A stretch of DNA of 64,000 nt from Thermoplasmata archaeon (GTDB taxonomy: Archaea > Thermoplasmatota > Thermoplasmata > Methanomassiliicoccales > Methanomethylophilaceae). Under the pieces are notes generated by a model. That model searched no databases, was not told the DNA's origin, and saw only the letters and a program-made list of their open reading frames with translations. The translations under genes were made by a program, and so were the position numbers. Within the stretch, counting starts at the first letter, position 1. Each line of letters opens with the position of its first letter. Shown here in pieces: positions 18,992 to 19,813 of the stretch. The stretch covers positions 1 to 64,000 of the forward strand of contig SUSY01000004.1 of assembly GCA_015063185.1 (NCBI GenBank). Reading direction: 5' to 3'.

Positions 18992-19759
18992 TCACACCTG
19001 TGTAGCGTTCTTGGTTGCCTTGGAAATGGCATCGCTTCCGATGTCATCGAGTTTCATGTATTTGGCATCGAGTACATCGGCCATCTTCTTCGCGAGTCCG
19101 AGTTTGATCATCCCCTGTTCAGTATCGAGGAACAGGGATCTGAACCCGTTGTCCCTTATGGATGCACAGACCTTCAGACTGTCATCCGTGGGATCGTTGT
19201 CCTTCACCAATGGGATGTTGCCTCTTCCATCGGATACGACGACCAAGAGGTACAGGTCCTTGGGGCGCTTTACACGTTCGTTGATCATCAGTCTCTCGGC
19301 AACGGTCAATCCTTTGGCCAAAGGAGTCTTTCCGCCGGTCGGCATTACCTCCATCCTTCTTTTGGCCAATTCAACACTGTTCGTGGGAGGTACCAGAACT
19401 TCTGCACCCGGTCCTCTGAAAGAGACTAGGGCGACCCTGTCCCTCTTTTGATATGCATCCGTAAGTATGGAGAGCATCGCGCCCTTGACAGCGGACATCC
19501 TCTTCTTTGCCCCCATGGATCCGCTGGCATCCACGAGGAACACGATGGTGACCCCTGTTCTGCGTTGATAGACCTTCTCCATCACATCGGATTCTTTTAT
19601 GGACAATGTTCCGTCCGGAAGTACGCTACCGTTCCTTGCAGCTGTCCTTACGGTTGCATCGATGGCTATGCTGTTGGGTTTACCGTGCGGTATCCTGCTA
19701 CCTACATATCTGCCGGAATACGACTCCGTCTCGGAACGTCTTCCTGTACTGTCCCGCAC
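18992..19759 (-). CDS. chlD: ChlD-type VWA half of the chelatase, in the -1 frame of the upstream gene
   Basis: Von Willebrand A-domain segment with the MIDAS motif in FLVDASGSMGAKKRMSAVKGA, the Thr in GGKTPLAKGL and Asp in VVSDGRGN. Upstream is the Ser/Arg-rich linker (DSTGRRSETESYSGRYVGS) usual in ChlD. The first in-frame start is a GTG at 19759 with no clear ribosome site, yet the frame stays open and reads ChlD-like ([15 protein letters not shown]) back to the slippery CCCTTTC at 19807-19813. A -1 shift there would give one 642-residue AAA+/VWA protein of normal ChlD length, with cobN 1 bp downstream. Confidence 0.88.
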   Translation of the reverse strand: MRDSTGRRSETESYSGRYVGSRIPHGKPNSIAIDATVRTAARNGSVLPDGTLSIKESDVMEKVYQRRTGVTIVFLVDASGSMGAKKRMSAVKGAMLSILTDAYQKRDRVALVSFRGPGAEVLVPPTNSVELAKRRMEVMPTGGKTPLAKGLTVAERLMINERVKRPKDLYLLVVVSDGRGNIPLVKDNDPTDDSLKVCASIRDNGFRSLFLDTEQGMIKLGLAKKMADVLDAKYMKLDDIGSDAISKATKNATQV

Positions 19760-19813
19760 GATACCGTCGATCCTCAGTTGCGGGTTGATTTCCGAGGATC
19801 TTATGCGAAAGGG
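19753..19813 (-). promoter_or_regulatory. Predicted -1 programmed frameshift signal (heptamer plus H-type pseudoknot)
   Basis: On the minus strand: CCCTTTC (19813-19807) fits X XXY YYZ with the upstream gene frame C-CCT-TTC. Spacer GCATAA (6 nt) contains the 0-frame stop TAA. Stem 1 pairs GATCCTCGG (19800-19792) with CTGAGGATC (19777-19769), nine pairs with one G-U. Loop bases CCCGCA (19784-19779) are complementary to TGCGGG (19758-19753), six pairs, forming stem 2 of a pseudoknot. The -1 frame continues into the VWA domain. Confidence 0.85.

Follow-up and report, generated by a model that had tools for sequence, protein, structure and literature searches.

A chlI/chlD gene of a gut methanogen, a Thermoplasmata archaeon, in all likelihood employs −1 frameshifting to yield both the ChlI (small) and the ChlID (medium) subunit of a CobN-type chelatase, as judged from sequence comparisons. 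The gene lies within a 64,000-nucleotide stretch of DNA (the window) from a host genome of 1.41 Mb in 52 contigs. All elements listed in the preliminary description of this DNA are present and the signal recurs at the same place in seven other genomes, confirming its observation as a whole, and its frameshift interpretation gains support from the conserved signal and the gene arrangements of relatives. The features of the locus are:

20919-19801, minus strand: complete ChlI-type AAA+ small subunit in the 0 frame, 372 aa, ending in STDPFA (Mg_chelatase and AAA_lid_2)
19813-19807, minus strand: slippery heptamer C_CCT_TTC, in phase with the ChlI frame (sequence)
19807-18992, minus strand: ChlD-type VWA part in the −1 frame, 271 aa after the slip (VWA_2; BchD chain 2x31_A)
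19803-19801, minus strand: 0-frame stop TAA, in the 6-nt spacer (sequence)
19800-19792, minus strand: stem 1, 5' arm GATCCTCGG (nine pairs kept in eight genomes)
19784-19779, minus strand: probable stem 2, 5' arm CCCGCA, in the stem 1 loop (pairing)
19777-19769, minus strand: stem 1, 3' arm CTGAGGATC (pairing and covariation)
19758-19753, minus strand: probable stem 2, 3' arm TGCGGG (pairing)
18990-15211, minus strand: cobN, CobN-type large chelatase subunit, 1259 aa (PF02514, 1158.6 bits)
15214-14252, minus strand: ABC transporter ATPase, whose start overlaps the stop of cobN (order kept in relatives)
14250-13522, minus strand: ABC-2 type permease (family search and relatives)

The ChlI-like and VWA parts lie in different frames of one gene

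A single gene encodes the ChlI-like and the VWA part, the former in the 0 frame and the latter in the −1 frame. Matches between the 372-aa ChlI frame and solved ChlI chains extend to residue 346, and the VWA part carries the metal-site motif VDASGSMG. Joining both parts gives a product that passes the NCBIfam model TIGR02442 ('putative cobaltochelatase') with 787 bits versus a cut-off of 779, which neither half passes, and that shares 56% identity with the 663-aa fused protein of a relative (G014), the alignment being ungapped across the junction from KNFKSTDPF. Comparison with RGIG5541 (Candidatus Methanomethylophilaceae archaeon; G001), the closest signal-bearing relative and a member of the same genus, gave dN/dS values of 0.05 (ChlI part) and 0.08 (VWA part); the gene is constrained in both coding frames, and these ratios indicate that both parts are under purifying selection. 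As seen here, a single functional gene can be split in two by annotation pipelines.

In agreement with the preliminary description, the ChlD-like −1 frame has no convincing start of its own: no ATG, GTG or TTG precedes the GTG at 19759, the first candidate, which itself lies inside the second arm of the probable pseudoknot. The VWA part might nevertheless be a separate gene, started at this GTG by coupled re-initiation about 40 bases after the ChlI stop, but we consider this very unlikely. The GTG is found at that place in five Methanomethylophilaceae-type copies, with GAGG or GGGG 12 bases upstream, but it is GTA in three copies from the family of Methanomicrobium, where the only start codons of that stretch are TTGs at other places (seen in RGIG7908). 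Moreover, the 16 codons before the GTG encode protein conserved in fused homologues, and it is on these codons and the GTA that independent initiation fails. Re-initiation would also leave the invariant heptamer unexplained.

Layout of the slip signal

At its 3' end the 0 frame reads ACC-GAC-CCT-TTC-GCA-TAA, and the −1 frame continues with CGC-ATA-AGA-TCC into the VWA part. The in-phase CCCTTTC reported earlier at the end of the 0-frame gene is present and has the phase X_XXY_YYZ; the stop had been placed six bases after it, and there is a TAA in this spacer, but it starts three and ends six bases after the heptamer. Stem 1 was correctly described as a 9-bp stem starting six bases 3' of the heptamer. 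Its loop is 14 nt long, and the H-type pseudoknot of the preliminary description holds insofar as CCCGCA can pair with TGCGGG, but this second helix is less certain than stem 1; connectors of 7, 1 and 10 nt would make a workable H-type geometry.

Across the 18,427 codon positions of 41 long ORFs in the window, in-phase CCCTTTC is unique to the junction. When the same protein was recoded with these genes' own codon usage, a 9/9 stem arose at the same place in 0.8% of the draws, and stem 1 together with a second helix of the observed length in 0.018%. Single-sequence folding z-scores were weak (−1.7 to −0.1), so the case for stem 1 rests on covariation and codon resampling. RNAalifold pairs the CCC of the heptamer with a downstream GGG, a competing pairing in invariant columns that is neither supported nor excluded.

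We infer from this layout that ribosomes translating chlI would encounter C_CCT_TTC shortly before a stable stem, which is probably part of a pseudoknot. Some of them would read to the TAA one codon on and release a complete ChlI-type small subunit; on others both tRNAs (Pro and Phe) would slip back by one base, so that translation would proceed through the VWA part and a 642-aa ChlID medium subunit would result. The slip rate would set the ChlI:ChlID ratio, and both products would act as a single metal chelatase together with the CobN encoded by the next gene. Transcriptional rather than ribosomal slippage would likewise give two products from one gene, but as the event joining the frames it is extremely improbable: the runs comprise three C and three T only, much shorter than the usual transcriptional slippage tracts, and slippage of this kind needs neither a fixed phase nor a fixed spacer nor a covarying downstream stem.

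Conservation and covariation of the signal

The signal proposed for ribosomal frameshifting is conserved among relatives. The preliminary description had suggested aligning related archaeal chlD genes, and in this alignment C_CCT_TTC is identical at the same place in 8 of 8 species-level genomes and stem 1 covaries. Among the eight are two genera of Methanomethylophilaceae-type archaea, and the other three genomes come from the family that includes a Methanomicrobium MAG. Five carriers belong to the same order (G000, which is the host genome itself, G001, G010, G022 and G031, the last corresponding to Methanomassiliicoccales archaeon RumEn M2), with model E-values of 1.7e-22 or better, and Methanomicrobium sp. 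RGIG7908 (L072), which came from a scan of named genomes, is accompanied by two more genomes of its family, G171 and G173. The 0-frame stop in signal genes is TAA, or TGA in one genus. No further signal case was found in 390 genomes drawn from the phylum; a DNA pattern with two mismatches gave many chance matches, and weak model matches in G148, G074, G087, G157 and G177 were left out of the count. Even though related chlD genes are mostly in one frame, a recent frame-breaking mutation (pseudogene) or a sequencing or assembly error, such as the missed T that the preliminary description had considered, has virtually no probability left, as identical letters in eight species-level genomes exclude a missed base and both parts are under purifying selection.

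All nine pairs of stem 1 are kept in each of the eight genomes and three of them show changes on both sides, namely pair 1 (G-C, G-U, A-U), pair 5 (C-G, U-A) and pair 8 (G-C, G-U, A-U). The signal is also constrained at the RNA level. We counted synonymous changes, i.e. differing codons for the same residue, in the 22 codons from GAC up to and including the second pseudoknot arm for pairs of genomes within a group. There is none between the host genome and RGIG5541 (0/20, versus 38% gene-wide), AS10tlH2TH and RumEn M2 (0/22 versus 37%), RGIG7908 and G171 (0/21 versus 30%), RGIG7908 and G173 (0/21 versus 30%), and G171 and G173 (0/22 versus 14%), and one between G010 and AS10tlH2TH (1/22 versus 44%). 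The stretch without synonymous change stops just after TGCGGG. Of the 14-15 same-residue codons, 8 differ between the two large groups, yet the nine pairs of stem 1 are kept.

For stem 2, 88.9% of the cells are paired, with no double (compensatory) changes. Only the Methanomethylophilaceae-type copies retain it in every column; those of the Methanomicrobium family can form CTCCC/GGGAG, a shift of the register by one column. Because of this one-base shift and the lack of compensatory changes we grade stem 2, and hence the pseudoknot, as probable, whereas stem 1 is well supported by the alignment.

The signal gene and a fused chlD with separate chlI replace each other

Three genomes without the signal (G014, G016 and G007) have chelatase loci of the same subfamily and carry a one-frame chlD of 663-707 aa with a separate chlI beside it that is 67-69% identical to the ChlI part of the signal gene. 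The ChlI, ChlD and CobN subfamilies and the archaeal family are the same as for the gene studied here, and the chlI/chlD pair likewise lies beside cobN, but there are two genes and no signal instead of one gene with the signal. Homologues with two independent genes, named in the preliminary description as evidence that would speak against frameshifting, were not found among the orthologues, which have either the heptamer or a fused chlD plus a separate chlI. In G022, G031, G150, G171 and G173, some of which are incomplete, the signal is present and there is no other chlI match. The related archaea thus provide a natural comparison between a signal gene alone and a one-frame gene with a separate chlI.

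G000, G001 and G010 have the signal and further chlI genes (54-57% identical). G001 additionally contains the 61-residue start of a further ChlI-type frame (L169:1530-1712, G001:C20), which is 68% identical, cut by the contig end and oriented divergently from a substrate-binding-protein-like gene; it could belong to the chlI subfamily of the signal gene. Owing to these other chlI genes and the cut frame the small subunit might have another source in these three genomes.

In the ChlI tree, one clade (99/98) unites the signal genes with the separate chlI genes and with the N-terminal parts of these fused chlD. Such a pattern is expected from a duplication that turned one gene into two, or from the opposite change, and it agrees with the stage model of PMC9227772. 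The VWA and ChlI trees leave the order of the two arrangements unsettled, with signal and fused-plus-separate genes in one clade. The signal genes of the Methanomicrobium family (L072:1526-3546, L165 and L166) group with those of the Methanomethylophilaceae type, apart from chlD of Methanoregula and Methanospirillaceae, and this tree position suggests that the signal gene was transferred between two classes of gut methanogens.

Gene neighbourhood and possible substrate

On the minus strand the gene order is carA, carB, chlI part, chlD part, cobN, ABC ATPase and ABC-2 permease, and neighbouring genes overlap or lie a few bases apart; carA and carB were named from the sequence. The adjacency to cobN noted earlier is correct, cobN starting one base after the chlD stop. 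CobN models score high on its product (e.g. 1444 bits, below the cut-off of 1468). The subunit families of an aerobic-type cobaltochelatase are present, with ChlI and ChlD as the small and medium subunits beside CobN, but 'cobalt' is only the usual family name, and insertion of cobalt into a corrin precursor is a putative activity.

The cbi (cobalamin) cluster of the same genome holds a CbiK-like gene (240.7 bits, cut-off 400) and, beside it, a second, separate chlI/chlD pair (L035:6425-10134, G000:C45); an ABC-2 transporter and the beginning of another cobN are found nearby. With the CbiK-like gene and the second pair in one genome, another substrate is conceivable for the complex. HmuS, a CobN relative, is reported to remove iron from heme (PMC12583661). 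A tentative reading, rather doubtful as a whole, is that a non-A-rich archaeal −1 signal with a pseudoknot moved as a unit between two classes of gut methanogens and serves a CobN-type enzyme other than the cobaltochelatase of B12 synthesis; such an enzyme might, for example, act on another tetrapyrrole or remove a metal as HmuS does from heme.

Relation to known frameshift systems

The precedent that the preliminary description names for frameshifting in chlD is real (PMC3711429, PMC5009743, PMC9227772). Programmed −1 frameshifting of fs-chlD genes was described by Antonov 2013 (PMC3711429), which reports shift rates of 10-63% in E. coli for such chelatase cassettes, and fs-chlD is also the subject of Antonov 2020 (Mol Biol Evol 37:2268), as cited in PMC9227772; for fs-chlD genes with a cobN nearby, PMC9227772 proposes that one gene gives two products. 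The locus very probably is a further member of this class, given the shared ChlI-like and VWA parts in the 0 and −1 frames, the stop right after the slip site, a downstream RNA structure (its stimulatory role being predicted here), the cobN partner and the proposed output of small and medium subunits. Archaeal members, in Methanocaldococcus and Methanococcus, are known too. The shift sites given in the accessible parts of the published work are poly-A (A_AAA_AAR), whereas the gene described here has C_CCT_TTC with a covarying stem, and by its sequence it is distinct from published fs-chlD in this non-poly-A slip site and in the stem, which is probably part of a pseudoknot. Furthermore, the fs-chlD class tends statistically to lack a separate small-subunit gene, whereas the host genome has the second chlI/chlD pair. 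A literature search for CCCUUUC with frameshifting matched only one, unrelated, paper on a fungal virus.

In Sulfolobus solfataricus, −1 frameshifting of fucA1 has experimental support (review PMC8211752). In both archaeal cases, ours being known from sequence, a stem-loop follows the heptamer of the −1 shift, but fucA1 shifts at A_AAA_AAT and gives one full-length enzyme, and full-length homologues of other genera do not retain its slip site.

Few tests of cellular −1 frameshifting in archaea are known to us, and the signal makes a good test piece for it, being short, nearly invariant and covarying, with a clear output of two subunits of one AAA+ machine.

Frame splits in two further loci, L088 and L074, lack the CCCTTTC signal. 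The first of them, a chlI/chlD junction of the bacterial isolate Yes70-11 (L088:2010-2260), has ten consecutive A just before the frame change, similar to the poly-A type published for fs-chlD. In the RumEn M2 assembly (L163:4059-8625), and in no other, cobN is split between two frames and the end of chlD has lost its frame, while the slip signal is intact; these breaks are probably assembly errors. Finally, the chlD linker of G050 (L015:1201-1501) contains two in-frame TAG codons, which may be read through, as archaea of this group use pyrrolysine.
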